Origin: Verrucomicrobiota bacterium
GTDB taxonomy: Bacteria; Verrucomicrobiota; Verrucomicrobiia; Verrucomicrobiales; DEV007
NCBI GenBank assembly: GCA_018970725.1
Contig: JAGWVU010000015.1
Span: forward strand, 36,815-100,814
DNA length: 64,000 nt
Direction: 5' to 3'
Every line of letters begins with the position of its first letter. Position 1 is the first letter of the stretch. Below, one piece after another: positions 9,877 through 51,471 of this stretch. The translations under genes and the position numbers were made by a program. The notes below the pieces were generated by a model. It did no database searches. It was not told where the DNA came from and worked only from the letters and a program-made list of their open reading frames with translations.

Positions 9877-12800
9877 ATGAAGACCATCGCGTCCCCCCTG
9901 TTCGTCTTTTGCGCGCTCGCCTGGTTGTCTGGTGTCGCCCCCTCCCTGCAAGCCGGTGGAAAGCCGGCGGCGGTGGGTGAGGGCCGGGACACGTTGCGGG
10001 GCGCTTGGCTGGCTGCCCGGCATGCCTTCGGCGGCGGAGAGGACGGGGTTTACGAGGCGAGAAACCTCACGCAGCGTTGGTCGACCCGGTTCGATGGCCA
10101 GGGGTTCACGGCCACGCCGGACGAGGGCGGATGGCGTTGGGGGTTGGAATTGCGGAGTTACGGGTTCGCGGGGCGGGAATCGGCGGTCGTTTCCGGGGCC
10201 GGGCGGGCCGGGGACGGGCGCTTGACCTATCAACGGGGTGGGAGCCTTGAGGAATGGTTTGTGAACGATGAGCGGGGTTTGGAGCAGGGATGGACCCTGC
10301 AGCGGCGGCCCGGGGGAGGGGAGGCGTCCGGTCCCTTGCGGCTGGAACTCGCCGTGCGCGGCGGGTTGGCAGCGCGGGTTGCGGACGATGCCGTGGAATT
10401 TGCCGATGGGCAGGGGGTGGCGCGGGTGACTTATTCCGGCTTGCGGGCGTGGGATGCGGAGGGACGCCGTTTGGAAGCGCGGTTTGCGCCTTCCGGCCAG
10501 GGATTCGCGGTGGAGATCGACGAGCGCACGGCGCGCTATCCGGTGACGATTGATCCAATTGCCCAGCAAGCCTACCTCAAGGCCTCGAACACGGGTTCTC
10601 TTGATGAGTTTGGCAAGGCCGTCGCGCTGGACGGAAACGTGGCGGTGATCGGTGCGCCCGGTGAGGACAGCGTGGCCAAAGGGGTGAACGGGAATGGCAA
10701 TGACGACACGGCCGCGAATTCAGGGGCCGCTTACGTTTTCGTGCGCTCGGGCAAGCTCTGGGTGCAGCAGGCCTACTTGAAGGCGTCGAACGGCGTCACG
10801 GGGGATTTGTTTGGCACCTCGGTGGCGGTCTCGGGGAGCACGGTGGTGATCGGCGCGCCGCAACAGGATGGGGCGACCGGAGCAGCCTACGTCTTTGTCC
10901 GCAACGGTTGGGTTTGGTCGCAGCAGGCGATTCTGAAGGCATCCAACGCCCAGTTGGGCGATCAGTTCGGGGCCTCGGTGGCGATCTCCGGCACGAGCAT
11001 CCTGGTGGGGGCGCCGGAGGAGGACAGCGTGGCCACTTTGGTGGGGGGAAACGCGGGGGATAACACCGTATCGAATTCAGGTGCGGCCTATGTGTTCACG
11101 CGTTCGGGGACGGCTTGGACCCAGCAAGCGTATGTGAAAGCGAGCAACACCGGGGCTGGCGACCGGTTCGGCAAAGCGGTCGCCTTGTCCGGGGATCGGG
11201 CCTTGATCGGAGCCGCCGCGGAAGCGAGTGCGGCGGCTTCGGTGGACGGGAACGAGTCGGATAACTCCAAGGTCAACTCCGGGGCCGCCTACGTTTACCG
11301 GCGGGAGGGATCCGTTTGGACCAAGGAAAGTTACTTCAAAGCCTCCAACAGCGACGGCGGAGACGGGTTCGGTGGGGCGGTGTCGATTTCCGGGGATCTC
11401 GCGGTGGTTGGCGCCGCCTCCGAGGCCTCGGCCGGTTCGGATCCGACGGACAATACCGCGGCTGGGGCGGGAGCGGTCTATGTCTTTGCCCGGAAGGGAA
11501 CGCAGTGGGTCCAGGATGCCTATCTGAAGGCTCCCACGCCGGCGGCTGATGCCCACTTCGGGGCTTCTGTTTCCGTTTCCGGGAGCACGGTGGCGATCGG
11601 ATGCCGCCCGTCGGTCGCCCCGGATGTACCCGTCTACGTCTTCAACCGGCCCGGATCCTCGTGGACGGCGGAGACAGGACTCTTTCCGGGGACTGTCTCG
11701 GGCCTGATCCAATTTGGATACGCGGTGGCTGTTTCAGGGGACGCGGTGATCGCCGGGGCTCCGTCCGAAGACAGTTCATCCACGGGCATCAACGGGAATC
11801 CATCGCCCGCCACCCCGTTGAACGATTCAGGAGCGGGCTACGTGTTTTCCGGCGACTGGCCGTTTTACACATCGCTCGCCAAAGGGATGCAATCGGCTCC
11901 GGGAGCGGGGGATCTCGCCTTTTCGCGTCCTTCCTCTGCGGCAGTGAGTGACGCGGCCACCGTGCTCTACGGGTTTTCGTTGACCGGGGCCGGGGCCAGC
12001 TCGGGGCGCGGTTCCGCCATGTTCTCGACCCTGGCGGGGGCGGGGTTGACGGATCTTTTGGTCCAGGCGGGCGATGATTTGGCCGGCTTCGGCGACGGGT
12101 TCTCCGTCGGGAGCCGGGTGGTCTCGCTCTCCGAGCCGATCGTGCACCAGAACGTCCAGGGGGGGATCTTCCAAGCGGTGGTCTCCGGGCCAGGCATCAC
12201 CTCGTCCAACAACCGGGCGATTCTCAAGGACGACGGCAGTTACCTGCGCCTGCTGCGCCGGACCGGGCGACCGATCGCGGAGTTGGGCAATGCCAGTGCC
12301 GGTTCGTTCGTGGGCGTGTTGCAAAGCCTGGATTCGGACTTGATCACGGTCTCCCACAAATTGCTGACGAGTTCGGTGACCCCGGTGGTTTCTGCGACGA
12401 ACGACAGCGGGATTCTGCCCCTGAACGCGAGTGGCGGGGTGGTGGCGGCGGTGCCCCCGCGGGAGGGCGATGCAGCGTATGGGGGCGGCGGGAACTTCGG
12501 GCAGTTCAGCGGGTTGGCCTCGGCGGCGCTGGGCGGGGTGATCCGTTTCACGGCGGCCCTGCTTCCGACAGGGGGTGCTGCGGCCAAGCAGGCGGTGTTT
12601 TCCACCAACTCCGCGGCCACGACCACGAGCCGGGTTGTGTTGCAGGATGAGAACGCCTGGGAGGCGGCTCCCGCGAAGTTCGGGGTATTTCCGGCGGTGG
12701 GAGAGGCGGGGACCGGGACGGTCTTCCGGGCGACCCTGACCGGGGTGGCGTCCTCGATCAACGAGGGGGTGTGGAACTCCAACGGGAGCAAAAAACTGCT

Positions 12801-13377
12801 GCAGAAGGGCGTGGCGAAGGATGGATTCACGGTGACCCGGTTCATCCGCGTGTGGCCGGTGGGGAACGACCAGGCGGTGTTTCACGTGATGCTGGGGGGA
12901 ACCGGGGTGACCACGACGAACAATGTCGCGATCCTGCTTCTGCAGGCGAACGGCACGATCCTGCCCCTGTTGCGAACCAACGACGTGGCTCCCGGTGTCG
13001 GACTGACCGCCGCCAAGGTGGCCTCCATCCTGTCGGTCGATGTCAACCCGGTGAACGGTCACTACGTGATTCTGGGCAGTTTGCGAGGGGTCTCGTCGGC
13101 AACCAACCAGGCGCTCTGGGCGGGACAGACCACGCTGGGCAATGACACGACCAACCGCGTGCAGCGCCTGCCCTCCTTGCGGTTGCGCAAGGGAGACCTC
13201 TACCGGACTTCGCGCACCCCGAAGGATTTGATCCGCTCGATCACGCTGCGGACCGCGCCGGAGAGCAGCGGGATCGGGGCCAGAGGACTTGGTCAGGCGA
13301 TCGGCATCCAAGGCAATATCGTGGTCGGCGTGACGGCCGACCGCGGGATTGAGGAACTGATTTTGGTCGCTCCCTAA
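9877..13377 (+). CDS. Large secreted FG-GAP repeat protein
   Basis: Exported protein of 1,166 residues with a signal peptide (FVFCALAWLSGVAPSLQA). An N-terminal beta-rich part (about 30-225) ends ARYPVTIDPI. Seven FG-GAP-like repeats follow (about 228-670). Each opens like AYLKASNTG, continues DxFGxxVAxSG and IGAPxED, and several carry Asp/Asn-rich loops such as GNGNDD before SGAAYVF. These resemble the blades of integrin-type propellers that bind calcium. The C-terminal 480 residues are a separate repeated beta domain (units with ATNxxxLW or SSNNRAILK) seen in choice-of-anchor style surface proteins. No catalytic motif or anchor was found. It is probably a cell-surface or extracellular protein. 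A 95-bp palindromic element starts at the base right after its stop codon. Confidence 0.82.
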   Translation: MKTIASPLFVFCALAWLSGVAPSLQAGGKPAAVGEGRDTLRGAWLAARHAFGGGEDGVYEARNLTQRWSTRFDGQGFTATPDEGGWRWGLELRSYGFAGRESAVVSGAGRAGDGRLTYQRGGSLEEWFVNDERGLEQGWTLQRRPGGGEASGPLRLELAVRGGLAARVADDAVEFADGQGVARVTYSGLRAWDAEGRRLEARFAPSGQGFAVEIDERTARYPVTIDPIAQQAYLKASNTGSLDEFGKAVALDGNVAVIGAPGEDSVAKGVNGNGNDDTAANSGAAYVFVRSGKLWVQQAYLKASNGVTGDLFGTSVAVSGSTVVIGAPQQDGATGAAYVFVRNGWVWSQQAILKASNAQLGDQFGASVAISGTSILVGAPEEDSVATLVGGNAGDNTVSNSGAAYVFTRSGTAWTQQAYVKASNTGAGDRFGKAVALSGDRALIGAAAEASAAASVDGNESDNSKVNSGAAYVYRREGSVWTKESYFKASNSDGGDGFGGAVSISGDLAVVGAASEASAGSDPTDNTAAGAGAVYVFARKGTQWVQDAYLKAPTPAADAHFGASVSVSGSTVAIGCRPSVAPDVPVYVFNRPGSSWTAETGLFPGTVSGLIQFGYAVAVSGDAVIAGAPSEDSSSTGINGNPSPATPLNDSGAGYVFSGDWPFYTSLAKGMQSAPGAGDLAFSRPSSAAVSDAATVLYGFSLTGAGASSGRGSAMFSTLAGAGLTDLLVQAGDDLAGFGDGFSVGSRVVSLSEPIVHQNVQGGIFQAVVSGPGITSSNNRAILKDDGSYLRLLRRTGRPIAELGNASAGSFVGVLQSLDSDLITVSHKLLTSSVTPVVSATNDSGILPLNASGGVVAAVPPREGDAAYGGGGNFGQFSGLASAALGGVIRFTAALLPTGGAAAKQAVFSTNSAATTTSRVVLQDENAWEAAPAKFGVFPAVGEAGTGTVFRATLTGVASSINEGVWNSNGSKKLLQKGVAKDGFTVTRFIRVWPVGNDQAVFHVMLGGTGVTTTNNVAILLLQANGTILPLLRTNDVAPGVGLTAAKVASILSVDVNPVNGHYVILGSLRGVSSATNQALWAGQTTLGNDTTNRVQRLPSLRLRKGDLYRTSRTPKDLIRSITLRTAPESSGIGARGLGQAIGIQGNIVVGVTADRGIEELILVAP

Positions 13378-24405: not shown

Positions 24406-27400
24406 GTGACGACTCTCCCCTCCATTTCCCGGTTGTGCCACGGACTCCGTGGAGTCCTCTGTTTGCTGGCGGGCGTGATGCCCGTTGGGGCGCAATTGCC
24501 GGTGGAGACTGAGGTGCCGCCGGTTGTCCGTCCCGCCGCACCGGCCGGTGGCGCCGTTACCTCCCCCGGCGCGCCGGTTGGTGCGCTCTCCGGTGAGGTG
24601 TTGGAGCGGCAGGTGTATGTGCCGTATCAGGATTTGGAGGCGCTCTTTGAGAAGGAAGGGCGGGGGATCATGGTGCCCTATCGTGATTTCCTGCAGATGT
24701 GGACCGAGTTGCAGGCGCGGCGGACGGAAGCGGTGGAAGAGGAACCGCCGTTGGGAGGAGTGGTCAAGTCCGCCGTTTACACGGCCGCGCTGAGAGGGGA
24801 GGGTGACGCCGCGAGCCTGGTGATCGAAGGGAAGATCGAGGTGGAATCGTTCCGCAAAGGCTGGGCGGAGATCGGGTTGGGGCGTGGGCCGTTGAACGTG
24901 GTGGAGGCAAAGACCGGGGAGGCGAGCCTGAGTTTGGGTGAGAATGGATATACTTTGTTGGTGCCGCGCAAGGGCGTCCACCACATCGAGCTGACCTTGC
25001 TGGCGCCGGTGAGGCGTGAGGCGGAGGGTTATGTCGCGAGACCCTCGCTGCCGCGGTCTCCGGTATCGCGCCTGGTCGCGGTGATCCCCGGGGCGGACTG
25101 GCGGTTTGCTTTGGAGGACAACCTGCCGTTTACGACGGGGCCGGATGGCAAGGAGAGCCGGATCGAGTTTTCCTTTGGGGAGAAGCAGGAGGTGGGGCTG
25201 CATTGGAGCCGGGAAAGTGCGGACAACCGGTTCACCCCGCTGTTGTTTGCGGACACGCGGTTGCAGTGCCGGATGGTGACGGGTGCGCTGCAGACGACGG
25301 TGGATGTGCACTATCGGATTTTGCGGGCCGGGGTGGATCAATTTGAGATCGAGGTGCCGTCCTCGCACGAGGTGTTGTTGGTGGAGGGGACGAACCTGAA
25401 AGAGTGGTCTCTTTCGGGCTCGGGCAGAATGCGGCGGATCCAGGTGCGTCTGCACGCGGAAGTCCGGGACACCTACGATCTGCAGGTGGTGTTGGAGAAG
25501 AGCGTGGGGGCCTTGCCGGCCGGGGTGGACGTGCCGGTGGTGCTGCTGCCGGATGTGGCGCGGCAGAGCGGGGTGGTCGAGCTTTCCGCGGAGAGCGATT
25601 TGGCGGCGGCGGTCGAGGATGTCGAGGGCTTGACGAGGCAGGCGGTGGCGTCCGGGGTGGAGAGCGGGGAGTTCAGTGCGCGCTATCGTTTTCTCAAGGC
25701 TCCGTATGCGGCGACGATGCGGATTGAACGGGCCAAGCCGGAGGTGCACGCGGACTTGATCATGGCGGTTCGGGTGCAACCGGAGAGATTGGAATGGCAG
25801 GCGGTCGTTGCGCTGGAGGTGAGCCGGGCACCGGTTTTTGAAGCGGAGATCCAGTTGCCCCCGGGGTTTGCGGATTGCCGGGTATCTGGCGATGACGTGG
25901 AGGGTTTCTCAGTGAGCGGAGACCGGGTGTCGATCCGGTTGGCCCGGCAGACGGGAAGGAGCACCCTTCGGCTGGAGGGCTCCCGGAGGCGCGAGACGGA
26001 GGAGGAGGCATTGACGACTCCGTTGTTGCAGGTGAGCGGGGCGACGAGTCAGGTGGCGCGGCTGGTGATGGAAGTGGATCCGAGCTTGGACCCGCTGACC
26101 GAGCAGCCTGGCGATCTTCTGGTGGTCGACCCGGTTGTCCTGCAGGAGGAACTGTCGGCAGCGGGGCTCTCCTGCCGGGCCGGGCTCGGGTTTCGCTACG
26201 CGGTGGGAGCGAAGCCGGCCAAGCTGGTCCTGAAGGCCCGGAGACCGCAGGTCACGGCAACGGTTTCCCAGTTGGTCCGGGTGGAAGAGGAGCGGAGCCT
26301 GCACCGGTGGTGGATCGATTATGACATCCTCTTCGCGGGGACCAACCGGTTGATCCTCCGGGTGCCCGCATCGATCGCCGGGCAGCTTCAGGTGGGAGGG
26401 GCCGGGGTGCCGGAGGTGAACCGGAATTACCGCCATCAGGTGGAGGGAAAGCCGGTGGACGGGGGCAAGGACGTTTTCTGGGCGATCACCTTCGCGGAAC
26501 GGCAGCAGGGGAAATATCGTTTGGAGCTTGCCTTGGACGAGGCGCATCCGGCGATCGGCTACGAAGAGGCGGCCCGGATCACGGTGCCGGTGGTCGGCCT
26601 GGTGGACGTGTTCCGGGAGAGCGGCCAGTTGGCGGTGGCCACGGCGGCCAACCTGAATCTGGGCACGGTGGAGGCGGAGGGCTGGGAGGCGATCGATTCC
26701 CGGGAATTGAACCCGCCGTTGGGTGGGGAGGGGTTGGTGGGGGCGTTCCGTCATGGTTCCCGGCCCGGGGATTTGACCTTGCCCATCACGAAGAACCGTT
26801 ACCTGGAGATTCCGCGGGCGTTGATCACCCATGCGGATGTGAACGCCGTGCTTTCCGGGGATGGGGCGTTGACGACCGAGGCGATTTACTGGTTGCGGAA
26901 CGCGGCGGAGAGTTCCCTCAAAGTCAAGCTGCCACCAGGGGCCCGGATGGTTTCGGACATTGTGGTCAAGGACACGGCACAACAGCCCGTGAGCCAGGCT
27001 GGAAGCAATGGGGAGGAAGTGGTGATCCGCCTTCCGCCGGGCGCGGAGACTCCGGAAGCGCCTTACCCGGTGCGTTTTGTCTATGAATTGGCCAGCCCCG
27101 ACGCCGGACAGAGCCTTCCGCCGCGGGGCGCCGTCTTGATTCCGGCCCCGGAAGTGCGTGGGTTGCAGGTTTTGGAAACCCGGAACCATCTCTATCTGCC
27201 CGGGGAATATCGGTATCTGGGATTTGGCGGGCCCTATGAACTGGCCGGGAAAGTGGCGGGATGGAGGGAGGCGAGGAAGCAGCTCGACTTCCTAATCCCG
27301 GCCTTGGGCGTGACCCATCCGGAAGGGATCGCCGTGCCCCGGAGCCAGCCACCGGTTTTCGACCCCGCGGGCACGACGGGTCTGAATGCGCCGGTCATCA

Positions 27401-27867
27401 AGCAGGGGCAATCCTTTGAGTTGTATCGGCTGGGGGCGCCCGCTCCGGTGACGGTCTCGTTTCTGTCCCAGGCACTCTCGACGGCACTGGAAGCGGTGTT
27501 GTGCCTCATCGCCCTGGCGGTGGGGATGTCGATGTCGCGTGCTTCGATGGAGTCGCGGTTCCTCTTCCTCATTTTCGCGGGATTGCTCCCCCTGGCCTTG
27601 GCTGGGATGGTGGCTCCGCAGATGGCGGATCTTTACCGGGCGGTTTTCCTTGGGGCCGCGGCCTCGGTGGGAGGTTGGGTTTTGGCAGCCGTTTGGTGGT
27701 TAATCCTGCCGAGGGCGGCGGCCGAGGCGGCCCCGGTTCCCGTGGTGCCGGCACTCCCGGCCCTGGGCTTCCGCGAGGAAGAAGAAGAGGAAGAGCCGGC
27801 AGAGGAGGTCCCGGCGGGAGAGCCGGAGGTGAAGGAGGAAGCCAAGGAAGAAAAGCCGGCGGAATGA
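24406..27867 (+). CDS. Giant secreted membrane-anchored protein 1 of 3, unknown function
   Basis: Not recognised. It has 1,153 residues from GTG 24406 (TTG 24394 is possible). The N-terminal signal segment is HGLRGVLCLLAGVMPVGA. Then comes a short helical signature, VYVPYQDLEALFEKEGRG followed by PYRDFLQMW, which recurs in altered form in the next two proteins. About 900 residues of predicted beta-sandwich repeats follow, with segments such as KGVHHIELTLLAPV, RWWIDYDILFAGTNRLILRV and NRYLEIPRALITHADV. The C-terminus has three to four transmembrane helices (about 1025-1115) and a strongly acidic tail (EEEEEE). The bulk is therefore probably periplasmic. Its stop overlaps the next start (ATGA), implying translational coupling. 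I recall similar large uncharacterised proteins from Planctomycetota and Verrucomicrobiota, but cannot verify this here. Confidence 0.8.
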   Translation: MTTLPSISRLCHGLRGVLCLLAGVMPVGAQLPVETEVPPVVRPAAPAGGAVTSPGAPVGALSGEVLERQVYVPYQDLEALFEKEGRGIMVPYRDFLQMWTELQARRTEAVEEEPPLGGVVKSAVYTAALRGEGDAASLVIEGKIEVESFRKGWAEIGLGRGPLNVVEAKTGEASLSLGENGYTLLVPRKGVHHIELTLLAPVRREAEGYVARPSLPRSPVSRLVAVIPGADWRFALEDNLPFTTGPDGKESRIEFSFGEKQEVGLHWSRESADNRFTPLLFADTRLQCRMVTGALQTTVDVHYRILRAGVDQFEIEVPSSHEVLLVEGTNLKEWSLSGSGRMRRIQVRLHAEVRDTYDLQVVLEKSVGALPAGVDVPVVLLPDVARQSGVVELSAESDLAAAVEDVEGLTRQAVASGVESGEFSARYRFLKAPYAATMRIERAKPEVHADLIMAVRVQPERLEWQAVVALEVSRAPVFEAEIQLPPGFADCRVSGDDVEGFSVSGDRVSIRLARQTGRSTLRLEGSRRRETEEEALTTPLLQVSGATSQVARLVMEVDPSLDPLTEQPGDLLVVDPVVLQEELSAAGLSCRAGLGFRYAVGAKPAKLVLKARRPQVTATVSQLVRVEEERSLHRWWIDYDILFAGTNRLILRVPASIAGQLQVGGAGVPEVNRNYRHQVEGKPVDGGKDVFWAITFAERQQGKYRLELALDEAHPAIGYEEAARITVPVVGLVDVFRESGQLAVATAANLNLGTVEAEGWEAIDSRELNPPLGGEGLVGAFRHGSRPGDLTLPITKNRYLEIPRALITHADVNAVLSGDGALTTEAIYWLRNAAESSLKVKLPPGARMVSDIVVKDTAQQPVSQAGSNGEEVVIRLPPGAETPEAPYPVRFVYELASPDAGQSLPPRGAVLIPAPEVRGLQVLETRNHLYLPGEYRYLGFGGPYELAGKVAGWREARKQLDFLIPALGVTHPEGIAVPRSQPPVFDPAGTTGLNAPVIKQGQSFELYRLGAPAPVTVSFLSQALSTALEAVLCLIALAVGMSMSRASMESRFLFLIFAGLLPLALAGMVAPQMADLYRAVFLGAAASVGGWVLAAVWWLILPRAAAEAAPVPVVPALPALGFREEEEEEEPAEEVPAGEPEVKEEAKEEKPAE

Positions 27868-30800
27868 AGCGTTTGGGGATCATGGCCGGCCGATGGTTGA
27901 TGGTGGCCATGACGGCCGTCGGCACGGGGATGGCGCCGGCCGCCGGGCCGGTGTGGCATCGCCAGATCTGGGTTCCCGCCGCGGAGTTGGAGACGGTGCT
28001 CGGCAAACTTTCCCACCCGGTTTCGCTCACGCCCGGGGAATATGAAAGTTTGGTGGGCGAGGCGGTCCGGCGTGAATCGGAGAACGGGCCGGACGTTCCC
28101 CGGGGAGCGGTGCTGCGCCGGTTGTCCATGACCGGGGAGCTTCGTGACGGGGTGCTGGTGGTGGAAGCGGGGTATGAGTGGGAAAATCCGGGGGGGGGAA
28201 CGGTGGCGACGCCTCTGCCGGCGCCGCATCGGGATCTGGGGGCTCTCCCGGCCGGGGAAAACGCCTTGGAAGTCCGGGCGGCTCCGGAGGGCGGAGGCGG
28301 GGCGCGGGTGATTCTGCGGGGCAAGGGACCGCATCGGTTGACGGCGCGTTTCCAGCTCCCGGTGACGCGGTCCGATGAAGGGTTTGAGGTGCGGATGGAG
28401 CCGTTGCGGGTGGCTGCGGCGAGTTTGCGGATTGGCTTCGAGCGGGGACTGGAGGTCTCGGCGAACGGGCCGGTGTTCGCGGAGAGCGGGGGGCTGCATT
28501 GCTTCGGGATGCCGGGGCCCGACGAAGGATTGGTGATTCGTTGGCACCGCACGGAAAACGACGCGGCGGTGCCGGTGTCGGTTCGCCAGACGAGCCGGAA
28601 TCTCTATTTTCTCGATGAATCGGGGTTGCAGGCCGACCTTGGGATGCGGTTGACGTCCGAGCTGAGCGGGTTCCCGGGAACCGTAGGGTTCGTCCTGCCG
28701 GCCGGGACCCAGGTGGTGGACGTCTCGGGTTCAGCCGTGACCGATTGGCAGGCGGAGGGGGGGGACCTCAAGATCGCACTGGCTCCGGAAACGGTTTCTC
28801 CGGTGGATCTACGGGTGCTTTTGGAGCGTGCGGTGGAGGAGGAGGGGAAGGAGGCGGTGACGGTGGAACTGCCGGTGCTCCGCGCCGGGATCGCGACGCG
28901 CGTTGAGGGCCGGATGAGTCTGTTCGGCGGACCGGGGGTTCGGGTGGAGGGGATGAAACTCCCGGTTTGGTTTTTTCCGGCGTCGGCTGGTCCCGGGGTG
29001 GCGGTGGAGGGGGATCCGGCTTGCCTGGCGGTGGTGGAATTTCCGGTTTGGAGCGGGCGCGCCCCGGAAATCCGGGTGCGGCGGATTGAGCCGAGGATAC
29101 AGGCCGCTCTGGAGAGCCTGGTGACGGTATCGGCGGACGCGGTGAGGATGCGTCATGACGTGGTGTTGGAGGTATCGGAAGGGGAGGTGTTCACCAGCCG
29201 GATGCATCTGGGAGCCGGAGAAGTGCTGGAAGGGGTGGAGTTCGCCGGGGGAGAATCGGGCGGCTGGCGGGAAGTCGGCAACGAGGTTCGCCTCCAGTGG
29301 GGCCGGGGGCTGACGCCGGGGCGACCGGGCCGGGTGCGCTTGTGGACGCGGTTGCATGGGGACCTCTGGAGTGCGGCCAAGGAATCCGCGCGGGTTTTGA
29401 TGACCGGCGTGATGGTTGAAGGGGCTTCCCAAAGCGGGAATCTCGTGGTGGAAGCCACGCCGGACTGCCGCCTCGCGGTGGTTCGGGAAGAGGGCCTTCG
29501 GGGGCAGGATCCACGCCGGACGACGATGGCTGGTCGTTTGGCCTGGCAAGGTTTCGCCAAAAGTCTGCTCGAGCTGGAAATCTCCCGTTTGCGACCGGCT
29601 TACGACATGCATCTGACGGCCTTCGTGGTGCCGGATGCGAAGAACCTGGAAATCGAGGGGCAGATTGATCTGGCGATCCGTCGTTCCGCCCTGCGCGAGG
29701 TGGAATTCTCCTTCCCGCCGGAGGCCGCGGCGTCCGTGCGCTTTTCTTCCCCGGTCATTGCGGGCCAATGGCCGGACCTGGGCAAAGGACTGGTCAGGGT
29801 GCGCTTTCATCAGGACCTGACCGGTTTCCATCAGTTGCGCTGGAGAATGACGTTGCCGGTGGAGTCGCGACAGGAAGGGAACGAGATCCGGTTTTCGGTG
29901 CCGTTGCCGGAGGTTGGCGCGCCCGGGGCTACGCGGGTGACGGGGCAGTGGATGATCGAATCCCGGAACGACACCACCCTGAGCGTGAAGGCGGAGCAAG
30001 CCAAGGAATTCGACACGCTGAGGGTGCCCGCGATTGCGGGATATGTGCCGTCCTTCCGGGTGGTGGCGGCCCTTGAGCAGCGGGGGCCGGAGCACGGGAT
30101 CATGGTGCATGGGTTGCAGCACGTGAACCGGCCGGTGTCCGGGGTCACGGTGGAGCGAATGGAGATCGACACCTACCTTTCCGCGGAAGGCCGGGAAGTG
30201 CACGAGTTGGAATTGCGGCTGGACAACCGCGCTGCCGGGGAGATCCGGGTGGGCCTTCCGGGCTATGCGGAGATGGTGTCGCTCGAGGTGGATGGGGTGG
30301 CGCGGCGGCCGGTGCTGGTGGAGAGCGGGGATGCGGGGGCCGGGCGGACGCTGCGGATTGTCCTGGAACGCGGAGGCGGGATCGGTTTGCGGTTGTCCTA
30401 CCTGCACGGGGGCCAGCCTTGGGGAGGTTCGGGGGATTTGGTGGTGGCGCCGCCGCGGCTGGAGGTTGGGCTGCCGGTGAAGGAGGCGGAGTGGCGGCTT
30501 CATTTGCCGGAGGGGTACCGGTATGATCGATTCAGCGGAGGGCTGCCGGCGCGGTTTTCCGAAGAGCCGGGGGTCTTGCTGCCGCTGCTTTGGTCGCGCC
30601 TCGCCCCGCGTCTCGAAGCCATCTTCGGATGGAGCGCGGGGACGAACCGTGGCGTGGAGGCGGGGCCGGTGGCGGGAGTGAGCCACCGCACGGTCGGGGC
30701 CATGTTTTCGTTTGGTGGGCCGCGGAGGCCGGATGATCTGACGTTTCATTACCTTGGTTCCGCGGCCGCGATGCGCGCCGCCTGGTGGTGGATCCTGGGG

Positions 30801-31025
30801 GGAATGGCTTCGTTCTGGCTGCTCGGCGCCTTCCGACCGGTGGTGATCGGCCTGACCGGCGTGGCGCTGCTGACCTTCCTGCCGCTCTCCGGGTTGACGG
30901 ATTTGGTCGCGGTGGCGAACGCCCTGTTGTCGGGCTGGCTCCTCTTCTTCGCCGCCAGCCAGATCTGGCGGGTCTTGTCCGCTTGGACCCGGACCATGGG
31001 AACCCGTGAACTGCCTGCCCGATGA
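27864..31025 (+). CDS. Giant secreted membrane-anchored protein 2 of 3, unknown function
   Basis: Not recognised. It has 1,053 residues and starts inside the stop of the previous gene (ATGA). Signal segment: AGRWLMVAMTAVGTGMAPAAG. The signature is IWVPAAELETVLGKLSHP with PGEYESLVGEA after it, parallel to protein 1. Beta-rich body segments align by eye with protein 1: KGPHRLTARFQLPV, LAIRRSALREVEFSFPPEA, and HELELRLDNRAAGEIRVGLPG. Near the C-terminus two or three hydrophobic helices appear (WWWILGGMASFWLLGAF, VVIGLTGVALLTFLPL, LLSGWLLFFAA). The frame extends far upstream in antisense-free overlap with gene 1, but the coupled ATG is the natural start. Probably periplasmic and membrane-bound, in complex with its neighbours. 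Confidence 0.8.
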   Translation: MKRLGIMAGRWLMVAMTAVGTGMAPAAGPVWHRQIWVPAAELETVLGKLSHPVSLTPGEYESLVGEAVRRESENGPDVPRGAVLRRLSMTGELRDGVLVVEAGYEWENPGGGTVATPLPAPHRDLGALPAGENALEVRAAPEGGGGARVILRGKGPHRLTARFQLPVTRSDEGFEVRMEPLRVAAASLRIGFERGLEVSANGPVFAESGGLHCFGMPGPDEGLVIRWHRTENDAAVPVSVRQTSRNLYFLDESGLQADLGMRLTSELSGFPGTVGFVLPAGTQVVDVSGSAVTDWQAEGGDLKIALAPETVSPVDLRVLLERAVEEEGKEAVTVELPVLRAGIATRVEGRMSLFGGPGVRVEGMKLPVWFFPASAGPGVAVEGDPACLAVVEFPVWSGRAPEIRVRRIEPRIQAALESLVTVSADAVRMRHDVVLEVSEGEVFTSRMHLGAGEVLEGVEFAGGESGGWREVGNEVRLQWGRGLTPGRPGRVRLWTRLHGDLWSAAKESARVLMTGVMVEGASQSGNLVVEATPDCRLAVVREEGLRGQDPRRTTMAGRLAWQGFAKSLLELEISRLRPAYDMHLTAFVVPDAKNLEIEGQIDLAIRRSALREVEFSFPPEAAASVRFSSPVIAGQWPDLGKGLVRVRFHQDLTGFHQLRWRMTLPVESRQEGNEIRFSVPLPEVGAPGATRVTGQWMIESRNDTTLSVKAEQAKEFDTLRVPAIAGYVPSFRVVAALEQRGPEHGIMVHGLQHVNRPVSGVTVERMEIDTYLSAEGREVHELELRLDNRAAGEIRVGLPGYAEMVSLEVDGVARRPVLVESGDAGAGRTLRIVLERGGGIGLRLSYLHGGQPWGGSGDLVVAPPRLEVGLPVKEAEWRLHLPEGYRYDRFSGGLPARFSEEPGVLLPLLWSRLAPRLEAIFGWSAGTNRGVEAGPVAGVSHRTVGAMFSFGGPRRPDDLTFHYLGSAAAMRAAWWWILGGMASFWLLGAFRPVVIGLTGVALLTFLPLSGLTDLVAVANALLSGWLLFFAASQIWRVLSAWTRTMGTRELPAR

Positions 31026-34000
31026 CTTGCCCGCGGTCCTTTTTCCCCAGTCTGCTGGCGGGTGTCCTTATTCCCTGGGGAGCCTGGGCCGACGTGGATT
31101 CTGTGGTGATTCCCTACGACCCCTCGTTGCCGTTGTCCGGGCAGACGCCGCAGAGCTATTTCCTCGATGCCGGGGCCTTTGCGCGGCTTTGGGAGCGGGC
31201 GGGACGGGAGCCGGACGGGGGCTTGCCGGGCGGGAGCGCTCCGGGAGCGGGCTACACCATGGTGGAGGGGTTGCATGACGTGGAATGGCGTGAGGAGGGA
31301 ATCCACGTGCAATCCCGGTATCGCGTCTGGGTCGCCCGATCCGGCTGGGTACGCATCCCGTTTGTCTTCACCGGAGCGGTGATCCAGCGGACCATGGTGG
31401 ATGGGGCTCCGGGGGCGTATGACCGTGGGGATTTGCTGGTGCAAGAGCCCGGTTGGCACCTGATCGAGTCGGGGTATCAGGTCTCCAAGGCGGAGAATGG
31501 AAGGGAAGCGCAGTGGCGGCTTCCGGCGGCCACGGCGGGGTTGTTGCGGGTGAGCGGCCTCCGGCAACCCGCGGTGATCAATGGCGGGCTTCCGGTCACG
31601 GTGGAGCGTCAAGGCGAGGGGATTTCCCTCGGCGCGGCATTGGGCAACCGGGAATCGGTCCACGTGGCCCTCGAGGGAACGGCCCGGGCGCCAGCCATGG
31701 AACGTCCGCCCTTGGCCCGGGTGGAGTCCTTGCTCACGGTCAGTCCCGGGTTGCGGAGCTTGCGGAGCGAGGTTTCATGGGAATTTCCCGGAAGCGGGTT
31801 GCGGCAGTTCGCCCTGGTTCTTGATCCCGCTTACTCTCTGGTCCGGCTTGAGATCCCGAATCTGGAGAGCTGGAAGTTGGTGCGGGAGGGGAAATCCGCG
31901 AGCCGCCTGGAGTTCGTCCTCCAGGCGGCGGTGACCGGTTCGCTATCGATCGCGCTGGATGCGGAGTCGGTCGGCGGCGGGGAAGACAAGGGGGAACTCT
32001 TCCCCCGGGTGGGGGCGGAGGCGTCCCGGCTGGAAGAGACCTTGGTGCTGGCCGGGCGCGGGGCGGTGCGGGTGGCGACTCCGGCGGGGGCGGGGGCCAA
32101 GAGGGTGGCGGTGCCGGAGCGTTTCCGGGAACGGGTGAATGAGGGGCGCTTGGTGGCGGCCTTCCGGGGAAACGGCGGGGATGAATCGCCGGGCTTCTCC
32201 GTGCGGCCGGTCGTGTCGGGGGATGTGGTGCGGGCGGATTGTGTTTACCAGTTGGAGGACGAATGGGTCGACCTCTTCGTGCGGGCCGCGCTGAAACCGG
32301 CGCAAGCGCCCGGGTTGCTGGCGATCGGCCTGCCCTCCGGTGCCGGGATTCGGGACTTCGTGGCGGAGTCCGGGGTGGCGCGGTGGTGGCGGGGCGGGGA
32401 TGTTCTTTGGGTGCAGACCGCCGCGGTGGGGGAAGGGCGTCCGATCGATTGCCTGATCAACCTGCGCTTGCCGCTTCCCGGGCAGCCCGGGGAAAAGCGC
32501 AAGTTGCCGGAATTGATCTGGCCGGAGGGGACGGAGGTAAGCGGGGACTGTCTGGTCCTGACGCACGCGGGGATGGACTCGAAGCTGGGCTTCGCGCAAG
32601 CGGAGAGGATCGGGCCGATGGCGGCGGAATCGGCCTTGGAGGGATTCGTGGTGATGCCGCCTTACGAGCGGCGGCATGCCTTTTCCTACGGTGGCGTCGG
32701 GTTCGGGGCGGAGGTGGAGCTGCAGGGGGTGAAGCCGGAGTTCGAGGTGGGCTGGGTGCTTTCGGCGGTGGTCAACGAGACGTGGATCCAGCTGGCTTGG
32801 CACCTTGATCTGGAGGTCAAACGTTCGGCCTTGCGTCAAGTCGAGGTCCGGGTGGTATCGGGGTTGCCTGAGTTGCGTTGGGAAGGAGTGGGGCTGCGGG
32901 AGGTGCGGTCGGTGGCGGAGGGCAATCACCGGGTCTACACGATCGTCTTCCAGGAGGAGATCACGGATTTCACGACGCTCACGGCGGCGACCGAGATTCC
33001 GTTGGTGCAGGGAGGGGCGCGGCTGCCTCACTTGGAGGTTCCGGGGTGTTTGCGGCAGAACCAGTTCGCGGTGTTGGAGAACCGGACCCGGGGAGGGCTG
33101 GAGACCAATCTGGCCAAGGTGGCGGAGGTTCCCGGGCCGGGCGTTCCCTATCTGCCGGGGAGGATGAACAACCCGAAGTTTTATCGCTTGAGCGGGCCGG
33201 ACTGGTTCTTGGGAGTGGGGTTGACGACATTGGAACGGGTCGGGGGGATGGAAATGGTGATTTTGCATTCCGAAATCGTGAGCGCGATCCGGGACAACGG
33301 GGAGGAATGGCATCATGTGGCTTACCGGATGCGCAATCAATCACTCCAGTTTTTGCCGGTCAGGTTGCGTCGGGAGATGGAGTTGATCGAGGTGAAGGTC
33401 GCCGCCCGGGAGGTGCAACCGAAGCGGGGCAGGGAAGACCACAAGACGGAGACGGTGCTCATCCCCTTGGACCCGACCCGGAACGCGGACCTGCCGTTTC
33501 TCGTCGAGTTGATTTACCGGCGGCCGGTGGAGCCGGGCACCCTGCCGGGCCCGGGATTCCGGCATGCCCTGGAAGCGCCACAACTCGATCTGGAGGGCCG
33601 GACCGAGGCGCAGACCTTCTGGCAGGTCTTCCTTCCGGCGGGGTATTCCGCCCACAAGGTGGCCGGGGTGGTCAATCAGATTCCCCAACGGCAGCGGTTG
33701 CTGGCGCTCGCGGAAGCGAATCTCCTCGAGATGGAGAGGCTCGGCCGGGCGGCGCGGTCCACGGATCAGGCGGGCATCGCCTGGAGAAACGTGCTGGGAT
33801 TGTCTCAGTTGACGCGGGAATGCATCTTCCCCGGCCTGGGCGCCGAACCGCCGGCGGCGGAGTTCACCGCCAAGTTGACCGCGTTGGAGGAGGAGGCGAG
33901 GGCCTTCCGGCCGGGAACGGATTTTTCCCTGGCCGCGGCTTCCCCGCTTCCGGAGCCGTTCCCGTCCGGATTTGCCGAGAACAGCGCGGTGGTGGTGGAA

Positions 34001-34582
34001 CGTCACCGGAAGCGTCTCGAGACCCTCCGGCAACGCGCCGCGCAGGTGCGGGATTGCCTCAAGCTCAACGATTTCGTGGCCTTGTCGTGGAAACCGGCCG
34101 GGGTGGAGACGGGGTCGGCGCCCTCCCAAAGCGTGCCCCGGGATGCGTTTCCCTTTGCCGCGGCGCAGGATGAGACGGCCCTGCGGTTCCTCGAGAGTTG
34201 GCGTTCCCCGATGATGACCGGCGGAGCGAAGGCTCCCGGTCAGGCCCCACGGTTCGGTCTGGACCCGGTGGCCCCGGCCGTCGCGGTGCCGCCGGGCGGG
34301 CAATGGATCGAGTCGATCGAACAACCCCGGGCGGCGCTGGAACTCGACCCGGCAGCGCTGCGGGCGCGGCTGTGGCCGGAGCCGGGATTCCCGGTGGAGG
34401 GTGAGCCGCTGGTGTTTTCCAAACTCAAGGGTGACGCGCGCTTGGAACTGGCCGGAGAACGGGTGGCCCGACGGGATTCGTTGCCGGTCTGGGGGTGGTT
34501 TCTGGGCGGGTTGGCCGCGATCCAGATTCTGGCCCGGATGACCGGTCGGAAACGCCCGATCCCGTCGGAAGCGCGGGGTTGA
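31022..34582 (+). CDS. Giant secreted membrane-anchored protein 3 of 3, unknown function
   Basis: Not recognised. It has 1,186 residues and again overlaps the preceding stop as ATGA. Signal segment: SFFPSLLAGVLIPWGAWAD. The signature is a diverged VVIPYDPSLPLSG with DAGAFARLWERAGR. Body segments echo proteins 1 and 2: EVKRSALRQVEVRV (compare IRRSALREVE in protein 2) and HVAYRMRNQSLQFLPVRL. A helical stretch (about 910-1020) rich in Leu, Glu and Arg may be a coiled coil. The C-terminus has one transmembrane helix (LPVWGWFLGGLAAIQIL) and a short basic tail. The three genes form a tightly coupled operon of about 10.2 kb; a sugar ABC importer starts 50 bp later and may have its own promoter. Confidence 0.8.
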   Translation: MTCPRSFFPSLLAGVLIPWGAWADVDSVVIPYDPSLPLSGQTPQSYFLDAGAFARLWERAGREPDGGLPGGSAPGAGYTMVEGLHDVEWREEGIHVQSRYRVWVARSGWVRIPFVFTGAVIQRTMVDGAPGAYDRGDLLVQEPGWHLIESGYQVSKAENGREAQWRLPAATAGLLRVSGLRQPAVINGGLPVTVERQGEGISLGAALGNRESVHVALEGTARAPAMERPPLARVESLLTVSPGLRSLRSEVSWEFPGSGLRQFALVLDPAYSLVRLEIPNLESWKLVREGKSASRLEFVLQAAVTGSLSIALDAESVGGGEDKGELFPRVGAEASRLEETLVLAGRGAVRVATPAGAGAKRVAVPERFRERVNEGRLVAAFRGNGGDESPGFSVRPVVSGDVVRADCVYQLEDEWVDLFVRAALKPAQAPGLLAIGLPSGAGIRDFVAESGVARWWRGGDVLWVQTAAVGEGRPIDCLINLRLPLPGQPGEKRKLPELIWPEGTEVSGDCLVLTHAGMDSKLGFAQAERIGPMAAESALEGFVVMPPYERRHAFSYGGVGFGAEVELQGVKPEFEVGWVLSAVVNETWIQLAWHLDLEVKRSALRQVEVRVVSGLPELRWEGVGLREVRSVAEGNHRVYTIVFQEEITDFTTLTAATEIPLVQGGARLPHLEVPGCLRQNQFAVLENRTRGGLETNLAKVAEVPGPGVPYLPGRMNNPKFYRLSGPDWFLGVGLTTLERVGGMEMVILHSEIVSAIRDNGEEWHHVAYRMRNQSLQFLPVRLRREMELIEVKVAAREVQPKRGREDHKTETVLIPLDPTRNADLPFLVELIYRRPVEPGTLPGPGFRHALEAPQLDLEGRTEAQTFWQVFLPAGYSAHKVAGVVNQIPQRQRLLALAEANLLEMERLGRAARSTDQAGIAWRNVLGLSQLTRECIFPGLGAEPPAAEFTAKLTALEEEARAFRPGTDFSLAAASPLPEPFPSGFAENSAVVVERHRKRLETLRQRAAQVRDCLKLNDFVALSWKPAGVETGSAPSQSVPRDAFPFAAAQDETALRFLESWRSPMMTGGAKAPGQAPRFGLDPVAPAVAVPPGGQWIESIEQPRAALELDPAALRARLWPEPGFPVEGEPLVFSKLKGDARLELAGERVARRDSLPVWGWFLGGLAAIQILARMTGRKRPIPSEARG

Positions 34583-47601: not shown

Positions 47602-47616
47602 CCCCGTCCCGGGTCA
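47599..47616. terminator. Hairpin built from two convergent stop codons
   Basis: TGACCC (47599-47604) and GGGTCA (47611-47616) form a perfect GC-rich stem with a 6-nt loop. The left arm includes the stop of the glycosyltransferase and the right arm that of the convergent dehydrogenase. There is no U-run on either side. It mirrors the hairpin at 8890-8916. Confidence 0.4.
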
Positions 47617-50600
47617 CTTCGCTTGGAGAGTGCTCAGGTAGGCAACGAGGTCGCGCACTTCTCGCTTCGCCAGAATCAATCCCATCGGAGGCATCAGAGA
47701 GACCACCGGACTGCGTTCGGCAATCTGGTTGAGCGGGAGTTTCCGGCTCGTAGCTTGCGTCGGATCGCGGACTTCCAGTCCCCCGGCCGATTCTCCCCGG
47801 AGCTGACCGCTCACCACCGTGCCATCCTTCAAGGTGACGGTGATCACTCCGTAACCTGTGGCAATGGCGGCTTGGGGCAGGGCCAGGGCTTCGAGCAGGT
47901 AACGGCGGTCCCGCTGCCCGACCGACTTGAGATTGGGGCCGATCACGCTGCCGCCCTTACTGTCGTCGGCTTTGTGGCAGGCCACGCATTGGGCGCCGAG
48001 GTGGTTGAGAAAGAGATCCCTGCCGCGCGCGGGATCCCCGCCTTCAAGGCACTCGATCCATGGGCCCAAAGGATCGTTGGCGGGGCGGGGGAGGGCATCC
48101 GGAAACCCGCCGATTTTGGCGGCTGCTTCCGCCACGTCCAACTGGAGTCCGGCCGGGAGATCGCCGGCCGCGAGGCGTTCGACCCAAGGTTTGATCAAGG
48201 CGCCCGCCTTCAGGTCGCCGAGCAGCACGAAGGCGTTTTGTCGTTCAGGCAGGGAGGCGGATTCGGTGAGAACCTTGGCAAGGTGGTCGCGGGCGGCGGC
48301 GGGATCCAGCGCGGCCAGCAGGCCCGCTCCCCGGATGCGGAGCGCTTCCCCGGAAGTCGCGATCGCATAGCGGGCCGCTTCCGGCGTTTTCAGGTTTTCC
48401 AGAGCGGCCACCCGGACCCCGGCCGGAGCCTTTTCGTTGTGCAACAAGGCGGTGAGGCGCGGCGCATCGAGCGGAATTTTCAGCGTGGAGGCCAGCTGCA
48501 CCGCTTTCTCCAGCACTTGGCTGTCCGAGGATTCGAGCAATCGGTTGACGTCCGGGCCCAAGGCGTTGGCCAGGGCCGGGGCATCCCGCCCGGTCAGAGG
48601 ACGCCGCCAACCGTCCACCCGGTCGAGCGGCGGCGGTTGGACCCAGGCGAGCAGGGCGTCGAGAGCCTCTAACCGCAGGGCCGGGGGGGAATCGGCGCGC
48701 AGGGCGTAACGGGAGACGCGGGCCGCTTCCCCGGGGGTTCCGAGGCGGAGGTTGGCATTGATGGCGCGCCGGATGAAGCTCTCCGCATGGTCCGCCGGGT
48801 GGTCGAGGCTCCCGGCAAGGGCGGGCAGCGCGCCGGGAATGGAATCGCCGTCGTGGATGGCGTGGGCAGCCTCGGAACGAATGTCGGAAACCGGGTCCCG
48901 GAGAAATGCGGACACCTCCGGGGATTGGAGGAGGCGCAAGGCCAGGACCGCCGCCATCCGTCGCGCTGCCGAGGTTTCACGCTGCAAGGCCACGATCTCC
49001 GTCACCGGGGCCACGGCGGCCAGCGCGCGCGACTGGGCGAGGCGGAAGTAGGGATGATCCGGTTGGGAATCGATGAAGGTGAGCAGGGAACGAAGCACGC
49101 CCGGGTCCGGCTTCCCGTTGGTCCCCAACGCTTGGGCGGCTTGGAATTGGACTTGCGGGTCGGAATCCGCGAGCAGGGGTGCCAGCCGGGTCCGATCAAA
49201 CGGGTCGGAGGCGGGAAGCTGACCCAGCGTTTTGGCCGCTTGGGCGCGGATCACGGGATCGGCATCGCCGAGCAGACCGAGGAGCGGCCCGGCGCTCTGC
49301 AATTGTCCGAGACCCCAGATCGCGTGGACCCGGGCCAGGCGGAGCGGGTGGGACAAGGCTTCCTGCAACGGGCCGGCTTCGTTCCGGGCTACCAGTTCGA
49401 ACTGAGCCTTGAGCCGGACCCGTTGGTCGGCATGGGCCAGCTTTTGCGCCACCGCGGCGGCGGAAAGTTTTCCGAAATCCATGGCGAGGGCCTCCCGGGT
49501 CTCCCGACGCTCCGGCGCCATCTTGTTTTCGGGGACATCGAAGCGCCAGATCCCGCCCGTTTGGTCGAGCGAATAGGCGGTGGACCCCCAGTCGGCTCCG
49601 TAAAGGGCTCCGTCCGGACCGAATTTCCAACCGATGATGGCGAGACCGTTGCCGATCTGGCGGGAGTTGACCATCCGGAAGGCCGGGCCATCCGGTTCCA
49701 CCTGAAAGGCCCATTGCTTGCCGCCCGGAGCTTCCGTCAGGAAAAACGTGCGTTGCCAGGAGGCGTCGAGCGCCGTGCCCGGGTTGTAGGCGAATCCACA
49801 GGGGCCGCCCACGTAGTTGCTCAGGGGCGGGATGAAATAGGCTGGTTGTCCCTTTTGACGGGGTTCCCAGAGTTTCTCGGCGGTCCAGGGATTATAACCG
49901 TTGCCCCGGTATTGGTAGGCGCAACGCCAGCCGGCATCCATGCCTTGCACGATGCAGACAAAGCGCTCCTTCTCCCCGGGCATGTCGGCGTCGTTGTCCA
50001 CCCCGAAGAGGTTCCCGAATTCGTCAAAGGCGAGTTCCTGAACGTTGCGGAGGCCATGGGCGAAGACTTCGAATCCCGAACCGTCCGGGTTGGCCCGGAG
50101 GACACCACCCTCGTTCGGGTAGGAGAATTCCCGGCCGTCGGGCGTGGTCACGGCAATGCCTTTGTCCCCGATCGTCCAGTAGATTTTCCCGTCGGGCCCG
50201 ACCGTGAGCCCGTGCATGTCATGCCCCGCATAAGCGATGTGATGGCCGAAGCCGTGGGCGAAGACAGTGCGCTCGTCGGAGATCCCGTCGTCATTCTGAT
50301 CCCGGAGTTTCCAGACATCGGGCGCGATCGTCGCGTAAACGGCTCCCTGATGCCAAAGGATGCCCGCGGCGATCCCGGTGACCTCCGTTTGGAAGCCATC
50401 CGCGAAGAGTTGGATGGCGTCGGCCTCGCCATCGCCGTCCTTGTCCTCGACCCGGTGGATCCGTTCACTGATCACGGTCAGGTCCCGGTAGTCGTGGGAG
50501 CCGTCGCCGTTCAAATCCTGGACGCGCGCCACGTTCTCCGCGGAACGCTCCGGGGAAAGCCGTTCCCGATACAAAGCCAACTTGTCCTCGATCCGACGGA

Positions 50601-51471
50601 GACCGACATCATCCGGGATCCAGTCCAGATTCTTGCGGATATCGAGGTCCTGGATCTGGCGCCGTTGGGTTTGGGTCACGTAGGCCCGGCCCCGGTCATC
50701 CAACGTGATGGCCACCGGATCCGGGACGTTCAATTTGCCGGACCACTTGCGGAACGAGAGCGGGGTGGACGCCGCCGGTGCGCGGCTGGGAAACAAGACG
50801 GGGACCCGGCCTTCGACCCGCGTTCCCTCGATCCGCACCTCATCCCATTCCCCCATGTCGTCGAAGGAGCCGAGACCGATCACGCCCCAGAGGAAGGTGG
50901 TGTCCCGGGCCACCTTGCAGGGGGTTTCCATGTCGTCGAAATAGACCGCGATCTCTCCCGTGGCGGTCTGGCGAACGATCTTGACCGCGTGCCAGGCATC
51001 GTCCCGCCACGGGATGCCCCGGTCGGGCGAGGTCGTGATCTTGGTGCGGGGTGCTTCGTTGACCACAAAAATCTGGCTCGAGTGCGGGTCCGGCTGTTCA
51101 CCGAGATGCACGTAGTAAAAGCGGGCCGGATCCTGAAACCCGAAGAAGAGGCACATGTCCCGGTGCCCCCGGGTCGTTTGCAAGGTTTTCACCCTGGCGG
51201 TCAGGGTGAAATCCCCCCACACATGATCCCGCAGCAGGGCGATGCTGTGCGGACTGCGGTGAGGCGGTTGGTAGTCGCTTTTGCCGAGGAGGTGGAACAC
51301 CTTCCCCCCGGGCCTGTCCGCGATCTCCCATTTCGACGGATCGCTCGGCAACCAAGCTCCAGCGCCCTTCTCAAAACCGTCGGAGAAGGTAAACAACGGT
51401 TCGGCGGCGGCAGCCGATGCCGGGATGATGAGGAGGAGGGAGACGCGGAGGAGTCGGAACATGCGGGGCAT
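47614..51471 (-). CDS. PVC-type secreted dehydrogenase with HEAT repeats and cytochrome c domain
   Basis: Exported protein of 1,285 residues: signal peptide (LRVSLLLIIPASAAAAEP); an N-terminal lectin-like beta domain (about 28-230, with FSDGFEKGAGAW and FFGFQDPARFYYVHLGEQ); a propeller of the PVC membrane-bound dehydrogenase type (about 240-640, with DLNGDGSHDYRDL and HGLTVGPDGKIYW); a long HEAT-repeat region (about 660-1130); and a cytochrome c domain with CVACH (1162-1166) and a possible Met ligand in SLMPPMG. It is the same family as the DUF1080 fusion at 2772 but has a different N-terminal domain. It probably oxidises a sugar and passes electrons to the haem. ATG 51471 or 51462; neither has a Shine-Dalgarno site. 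Divergent from the RDD gene, 50 bp away. Confidence 0.87.
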   Translation of the reverse strand: MPRMFRLLRVSLLLIIPASAAAAEPLFTFSDGFEKGAGAWLPSDPSKWEIADRPGGKVFHLLGKSDYQPPHRSPHSIALLRDHVWGDFTLTARVKTLQTTRGHRDMCLFFGFQDPARFYYVHLGEQPDPHSSQIFVVNEAPRTKITTSPDRGIPWRDDAWHAVKIVRQTATGEIAVYFDDMETPCKVARDTTFLWGVIGLGSFDDMGEWDEVRIEGTRVEGRVPVLFPSRAPAASTPLSFRKWSGKLNVPDPVAITLDDRGRAYVTQTQRRQIQDLDIRKNLDWIPDDVGLRRIEDKLALYRERLSPERSAENVARVQDLNGDGSHDYRDLTVISERIHRVEDKDGDGEADAIQLFADGFQTEVTGIAAGILWHQGAVYATIAPDVWKLRDQNDDGISDERTVFAHGFGHHIAYAGHDMHGLTVGPDGKIYWTIGDKGIAVTTPDGREFSYPNEGGVLRANPDGSGFEVFAHGLRNVQELAFDEFGNLFGVDNDADMPGEKERFVCIVQGMDAGWRCAYQYRGNGYNPWTAEKLWEPRQKGQPAYFIPPLSNYVGGPCGFAYNPGTALDASWQRTFFLTEAPGGKQWAFQVEPDGPAFRMVNSRQIGNGLAIIGWKFGPDGALYGADWGSTAYSLDQTGGIWRFDVPENKMAPERRETREALAMDFGKLSAAAVAQKLAHADQRVRLKAQFELVARNEAGPLQEALSHPLRLARVHAIWGLGQLQSAGPLLGLLGDADPVIRAQAAKTLGQLPASDPFDRTRLAPLLADSDPQVQFQAAQALGTNGKPDPGVLRSLLTFIDSQPDHPYFRLAQSRALAAVAPVTEIVALQRETSAARRMAAVLALRLLQSPEVSAFLRDPVSDIRSEAAHAIHDGDSIPGALPALAGSLDHPADHAESFIRRAINANLRLGTPGEAARVSRYALRADSPPALRLEALDALLAWVQPPPLDRVDGWRRPLTGRDAPALANALGPDVNRLLESSDSQVLEKAVQLASTLKIPLDAPRLTALLHNEKAPAGVRVAALENLKTPEAARYAIATSGEALRIRGAGLLAALDPAAARDHLAKVLTESASLPERQNAFVLLGDLKAGALIKPWVERLAAGDLPAGLQLDVAEAAAKIGGFPDALPRPANDPLGPWIECLEGGDPARGRDLFLNHLGAQCVACHKADDSKGGSVIGPNLKSVGQRDRRYLLEALALPQAAIATGYGVITVTLKDGTVVSGQLRGESAGGLEVRDPTQATSRKLPLNQIAERSPVVSLMPPMGLILAKREVRDLVAYLSTLQAK

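Follow-up and report, generated by a model that had tools for sequence, protein, structure and literature searches.

Three overlapping, paralogous genes of Verrucomicrobiota encode a candidate periplasmic scaffold

We analysed a 64,000-nucleotide stretch of a Verrucomicrobiota genome (contig JAGWVU010000015.1, positions 36,815 to 100,814; hereafter the window), which contains three consecutive genes, P1, P2 and P3, on the plus strand, of 1,153, 1,053 and 1,186 codons, respectively. A sequence-only reading of the window had given these lengths and positions and an ATGA stop/start overlap at both junctions, all of which was borne out when the sequence was inspected. P1 starts with GTG, and an in-frame TTG is also present 12 bases upstream. 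The coordinates of the trio in the sister genome G001 likewise give a 4-base overlap at both junctions. The three genes share a common ancestry, a fixed order and overlapping ends, and P2 and P3 are recurrently fused in relatives; the five-domain chain, the fold, the signal segments and the membrane helices of their products are predicted.

BLASTP aligned P1 with P2 (E 9e-14) and P2 with P3 (E 6e-8), and the P1-P3 match was marginal (E 0.003). In the P2-P3 alignment, RSALREVE of P2 was paired with RSALRQVE of P3, indicating that these phrases, singled out earlier as shared, occupy homologous positions. Profile-profile comparison of the three pairs gave E 4.2e-44 over 925 columns, 6.3e-35 over 843 and 1.9e-15 over 798, whereas the controls (one reversed and three column-shuffled alignments per pair, with composition kept) gave E values of 0.016-0.81. 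These results confirm the proposal of diverged paralogues: the three proteins are collinear over nearly their full length, with 18-21% identity in the profile alignments. Each body was cut into five domains (a-e) on the basis of the P1 and P3 models plus homology. Domains at the same position in different proteins matched at E 2e-5 or better, with the exception of P1c-P3c (2e-4), P2c-P3c (0.002) and P2b-P3b (0.016); reversed controls of the domain pairs shown gave 0.014-0.53. Domains b, c and d of P1 also matched each other (E 1.2e-12 to 2.5e-14), which suggests that the P1 body grew through internal duplication. In the same domain comparison, repeats within P2 and within P3 were weak or not seen.

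Gene order was surveyed in 57 genomes, including that of the window. At E 0.001, P1 matches were found in 34 genomes, many of them weak matches to a sister form (type B, described below). Matches of more than 200 bits were found in 15 genomes, all of which contain P2. Overall, P2 was found in 16 genomes (these 15 and a weak match in G017) and P3 in 13, with a fourteenth, G034, detected by profile only. P1 and P2 are neighbours in 14/15 genomes, the exception being G039, where they lie on different contigs; P2 adjoins P3 or is fused to it in 14/15 (in G053 a run of N follows the P2 start). When nine named loci were searched separately, five of which are apparently the same as genomes already counted, P2 lay beside P1 in eight, the ninth ending within P1, and P3 came next in all six that reach it. 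No solitary trio-type P1 lacking a partner was found in the 57 genomes and the nine named loci. The sequence-only reading had anticipated conserved triplets, as opposed to homologues that occur only singly. The survey favours this reading: P2 accompanies P1 in all 15 genomes, and P3 comes next in each of the 14 whose assembly extends far enough. Single forms exist as well, namely the single-gene type B and three solitary small relatives.

A single open frame covers P2 and P3 in G020, G054, G056 and G039 (4 of 14 close genomes; the G039 frame is cut at both contig ends) and at all five distant loci. In a phylum survey of 240 genomes, 37 matched the P1 profile at 1e-30, mostly through the sister form. 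Five P1-like genes came from outside the class, and each of them adjoins a second gene with two bodies. At the eight fusion joints inspected (G039 was not among them), another hydrophobic stretch comes after the P2 membrane segments, and several of these stretches end in a small-residue pattern that resembles a signal peptidase site; judged by eye, the fusions thus keep a signal-peptide-like segment at these joints. In a tree of 69 bodies, P1 grouped with X1, the five distant P1-like genes (SH-aLRT support 96), and the two halves of the genes next to them, X2 and X3, grouped with P2 (93, short of the tool's threshold of 95) and P3 (98), respectively. This tree was built by a fast search, was not bootstrapped and was rooted at its midpoint, and many rows deviate in composition. 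Each of the three groups includes rows from outside the class, which by this tree indicates that P1, P2 and P3 separated before some lineages outside the class branched off.

Hydrophobic N-terminal segments were seen by eye in all three proteins and are predicted to be signal segments, in agreement with the sequence-only reading. The short N-terminal signatures noted there are also present (Table 1); in 19 P1-family proteins the consensus is ER-IY-PYEDLE-VFEK-GRGVFLPYREFL-LW, with several invariant columns. C-terminal membrane helices had been assigned to each protein. This held for P1 and P2, with about three predicted helices each, but not for P3, where one helix of low confidence is predicted rather than several and a hydropathy scan gave no C-terminal helix over the cut-off used. 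The membrane helices also change the predicted location: instead of being secreted, as first described, the trio proteins are predicted to be inner-membrane-anchored and periplasmic.

Table 1. Coordinates of the trio genes, their parts and other features, in positions of the window unless locus names are given
Feature	Position	Strand	Description
P1 gene	24406..27867	+	1,153 codons; signal segment, signature, body, C-terminal membrane helices, acidic tail
P1 N-terminal signature	24604..24702	+	residues 67-99; conserved in alignment, two short helices in model
P1 body	24751..27240	+	residues 116-945; divided into five domains from predicted model
P1 membrane helices, predicted	27469..27705	+	residues 1022-1100, three helices; hydropathy and model
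ATGA stop/start overlap P1-P2	27864..27867	+	read from sequence
P2 gene	27864..31025	+	1,053 codons; without the secretin N-domain insert known from relatives' P2s
P2 N-terminal signature	27963..28058	+	residues 34-65; alignment of P2 family
P2 body	28095..30563	+	residues 78-900; domains assigned by homology to P1
P2 membrane helices, predicted	30777..30983	+	about residues 972-1040; hydropathy and P2 alignment
ATGA stop/start overlap P2-P3	31022..31025	+	read from sequence
P3 gene	31022..34582	+	1,186 codons
P3 N-terminal signature	31103..31192	+	residues 28-57
P3 body	31241..33691	+	residues 74-890; five domains cut, model confident in parts only
P3 helical linker	33686..34204	+	residues 889-1061; model confidence (pLDDT) <50 after residue 965
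P3 single C-terminal membrane helix, predicted	34478..34543	+	residues 1153-1174; model region of low confidence and P3 alignment
Type B operon	L108, L109, L113, L114, L090, L091 and others		ECF sigma factor, VWA/YfbK_C protein, then giant double-body protein
FG-GAP repeat protein	9877..13377		large; seven stretches, E 4e-64
Upstream neighbour of P1	22299..24353		684 codons
ABC transporter set downstream of P3	34633..38178		sugar-type
DUF7133 protein	47614..51471		HEAT repeats and weak cytochrome c match

When the predicted P1 and P3 models were searched with Foldseek, ribophorin I/Ost1 ranked first for both, and with VIA-align the N-terminal domains of M1 aminopeptidases came next after it. 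The beta fold of the M1 N-domain was matched by one P1 domain (domain b) and one P3 domain. The predicted folds of P1 and P3 therefore agree, as the sequence-only reading had expected of the trio, and they are predicted to be M1-aminopeptidase-N/ribophorin-I-like, with a direct match at one domain each. The fold is already known; the family and the system are new. Integrin chains, which came second in Foldseek with either model, and alpha-2-macroglobulin chains, all with TM-scores of about 0.1, were read as generic beta-sandwich matches. Membership in the alpha-2-macroglobulin family was rejected because the A2M_BRD match of P2 (E 0.025, 15.4 bits) is below the Pfam cut-off of 22.7. A peptidase role was rejected because the zinc-binding HEXXH motif occurs in 0/47 protein records, the three of the window included.

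Many relatives' P2s carry an additional part. In 8 of 12 P2s scanned, an insert between the body and the membrane helices corresponds to the tetratricopeptide repeat (TPR) and N0/N1 region of Amuc_1098-family secretins, as detected by our own profile built from nine such secretins; in two of the eight (G056 and G039) there are short stretches only. The NCBIfam model NF042912 matched four relatives' P2s (E 2e-124, 4.7e-77, 3.2e-66 and 8.6e-57), all below its 750-bit cut-off, and did not match the G015 P2; no Amuc_1098-family match was found by NCBIfam in the three proteins of the window. Matches to this family below the cut-off occur in 57/57 genomes and in 8/14 control genomes, and no control genome had a match over it. 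Amuc_1098 secretin pieces (TPR, N0/N1) were also seen in other large open frames of the 57 relatives, where they resemble a mobile periplasmic module.

We tentatively propose, with somewhat less than even confidence, that the trio forms a non-enzymatic 1:1:1 scaffold that is anchored in the inner membrane and reaches into the periplasm. Three diverged paralogues, each predicted to be a chain of five beta-rich domains, would assemble on the inner membrane. Gene overlap and gene fusion would both let the subunits be made side by side and in equal numbers, and equal dosage may be the reason for both arrangements. In the fusions, the retained signal-like segment would serve either as an additional membrane pass, so that the P3 body comes to lie in the periplasm again, or as a site of cleavage that releases P3. 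The non-enzymatic chains could then act as a docking arm, which is the weakest step of the proposal, and in lineages whose P2 contains secretin-type N0/N1 and TPR modules the arm may engage a secretin or another envelope partner, comparable to the way in which secretins of other bacteria are held by scaffold proteins of the inner membrane. The recurrent P2-P3 fusion favours a stable complex indirectly, the complex itself being what we infer.

Several results weigh against this scaffold. The P1 and P3 models each have a predicted TM-score (pTM) of 0.34, and outside its domains the P3 model is of poor quality. Clear repeats by sequence are confined to P1 domains b-d, with domains a and e weakly linked. 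Three solitary small relatives exist (one of 640 codons, one of 729 codons and one split in two), and among 12 genomes no flanking gene is common at a fixed place beyond the genus, so that the flanks give no function. The secretin-type insert was not found in the P2 of the window or of its genus, and it was not seen in the P2s of G015, G054 and G034 (that of G053 is truncated), in 5/5 distant loci or in L080. Because it is absent from the window, the genus, 4/12 scanned P2s (one of them truncated) and the distant P2s, secretin docking cannot be the general function of the trio. In addition, an Amuc_1098-family secretin is present over the cut-off in 55/57 genomes and the trio in only 15/57, and since partial Amuc_1098 copies are common, the module may be general-purpose.

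The missing inserts, and the fact that most secretin-bearing genomes have no trio, also count against an alternative that we consider unlikely, in which the trio provides the inner-membrane half of a machine for a pilus or for type II-like secretion and holds or gates an Amuc_1098-type secretin ring, with the N-domains of P2 stacked on those of the secretin. This alternative draws on the N0/N1 and TPR inserts themselves, with NF042912 E values of 2e-124, 4.7e-77 and 8.6e-57, and on the same modules in the VWA protein encoded beside type B, where they occur in 2/7 loci scanned and, by position, in two more. It also agrees with the description of Amuc_1098 in Akkermansia as a PilQ of the outer membrane that combines TPRs with a secretin domain (PMC4960237).

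Type B is a single gene of about 2,100-2,464 codons that encodes two bodies with membrane helices between them. One upstream gene family is common to 14/15 type B loci and a second to 6/15. In the loci scanned, the upstream gene encodes a VWA/YfbK_C protein (5/5), with a zf-HC2 zinc finger in two cases and the Amuc_1098-type modules just mentioned in some loci, and the second gene encodes an ECF sigma factor (3/3). By analogy with this operon, which may signal through the ECF sigma factor and an anti-sigma/VWA protein, the trio could be an envelope-stress or surface sensor whose beta chains detect or bind a cue beyond the inner membrane and relay it. We regard this as doubtful, although it and the secretin-linked alternative are the chief competitors of the scaffold. 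When three ECF and five VWA queries from type B were compared with 172 open reading frames around the trios of 12 genomes, no counterpart was detected and the sole matches were TPR/secretin-type stretches of P2 and P3; moreover, type B branches separately in the tree. A further alternative dispenses with the complex: three related proteins would be made together and work separately, for example by binding different ligands, and their order would be kept by co-regulation only. The low identity between the paralogues in the profile alignments and the long helical linker found in P3 alone are consistent with separate functions, but the recurrent P2-P3 fusion and the 4-base overlaps at both junctions argue against them, and we consider this explanation improbable.

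The scaffold proposal can be extended to a bolder form, which is speculative and rather unlikely to hold as a whole. The trio would then represent an undescribed, phylum-wide envelope machine, in which three co-translated giant chains of M1-N/ribophorin-like domains supply the inner-membrane half of a scaffold that crosses the periplasm and captures rings of the secretin type or other partners in the outer membrane. Several lineages would make a P2-P3 polyprotein, which signal peptidase would cut at its internal signal peptide, fixing a 1:1 ratio, and type B would wire the same chains to ECF sigma signalling.

No family in Pfam or NCBIfam matched P1, P2 or P3 above its cut-off, and a P1-family profile found no solved chain among PDB sequences at E 1; the libraries searched contain no named family for the trio, and no solved relative was found by the sequence of P1. 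Among the literature matches listed, no paper was about the trio proteins as judged by title and start of abstract, an absence that is weak because only open-access articles were covered. The split of the trio appears older than some lineages outside the class and the gene order has been kept since, so its role is unlikely to be trivial. As a target, these genes offer what is probably a new envelope complex, with a predicted, non-enzymatic fold of the M1-N type that is also seen in ribophorin I, and the gene fusions with an internal signal-like segment provide a directly testable feature.

The closest named proteins and loci belong to Verrucomicrobia/Verrucomicrobiales bins, and the P1 search also returned proteins named as Planctomycetes/Planctomycetota with 24-27% identity (P0024, P0026 and P0029). 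A metagenome bin labelled Akkermansia muciniphila (L079) contains a P1 relative, 44% identical to P0012 in the best segment, with a P2 relative adjoining. The solitary relative in G029 (L119, 5377-7307) consists of two frames of 216 and 427 codons with a 4-base overlap, representing a split gene or an assembly error. In the window, the upstream neighbour of P1 contains DUF455 at residues 27-257, with no Pfam match above the cut-off in the remainder, and a relative of this gene is also upstream of P1 in G001. In the transporter set downstream of P3, the substrate-binding protein matches Peripla_BP_4, and the ATPase and permease were assigned from appearance only; related genes are downstream in G002. 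Further away lie the FG-GAP repeat protein and the DUF7133 protein (Table 1). Relatives of the DUF7133 gene are found directly after P3 in G015 and about 6.6 kb before P1 in G030, and overall DUF7133 genes occur near three trios at variable distance. The trios of G012, G020 and G024 have DUF1501 genes in their vicinity, and two of these three also have PSCyt/PSD1 genes nearby. The two PSCyt/PSD1 genes were rejected as members of the cluster, their likeness being traced to a short cytochrome-like stretch in the P3 frame of G024. This extra cytochrome-c-like stretch, with a CXXCH motif (CTKCH), lies between the signal-like segment and the signature (L039, about 9084-9380; also L072) and resembles a planctomycete-type cytochrome protein of G020; no CXXCH was present in six other P3 frames checked.

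Among known systems, ribophorin I/Ost1 matches the P1 and P3 models best in structure and may resemble them in carrying beta-rich domains in tandem outside the cytoplasm. The description of Ost1 (PMC7226087) gives it a single membrane helix and, towards the N-terminus, two luminal beta domains that resemble each other, whereas five domains are predicted in each trio protein, and the match has Foldseek TM-scores of 0.1-0.3 and a root-mean-square deviation of about 19 A over the whole two-domain span. That the trio is a ribophorin-like helper of a protein-glycosylating enzyme is very improbable despite this top match, and we rejected it because STT3, found over the cut-off in 4/57 genomes, is missing from all 15 trio genomes (the G053 match is below the cut-off); neither a Ribophorin_I match in Pfam nor a PDB sequence match of the P1 profile was found at E up to 1. 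M1 aminopeptidases differ from the trio proteins in their HEXXH motif and in the Pfam M1 profile, which matched none of the three at E up to 1, and outside the matched domains the comparison scarcely covers P1 and P3. The Amuc_1098/PilQ-type secretins (NF042912) share their TPR and N0/N1 region with many relatives' P2s, which contain short scraps rather than a complete barrel and stay below the 750-bit cut-off. Type B proteins belong to the same body family as the trio but differ in having one gene instead of three, a separate tree branch and regulatory partners. The comparison with the GspB/OutB scaffold claims no homology and concerns only the proposed working principle of the trio: GspB/OutB is described as anchoring a secretin to the inner membrane (PMC9239104), and the trio may likewise hold an envelope partner from an inner-membrane anchor.

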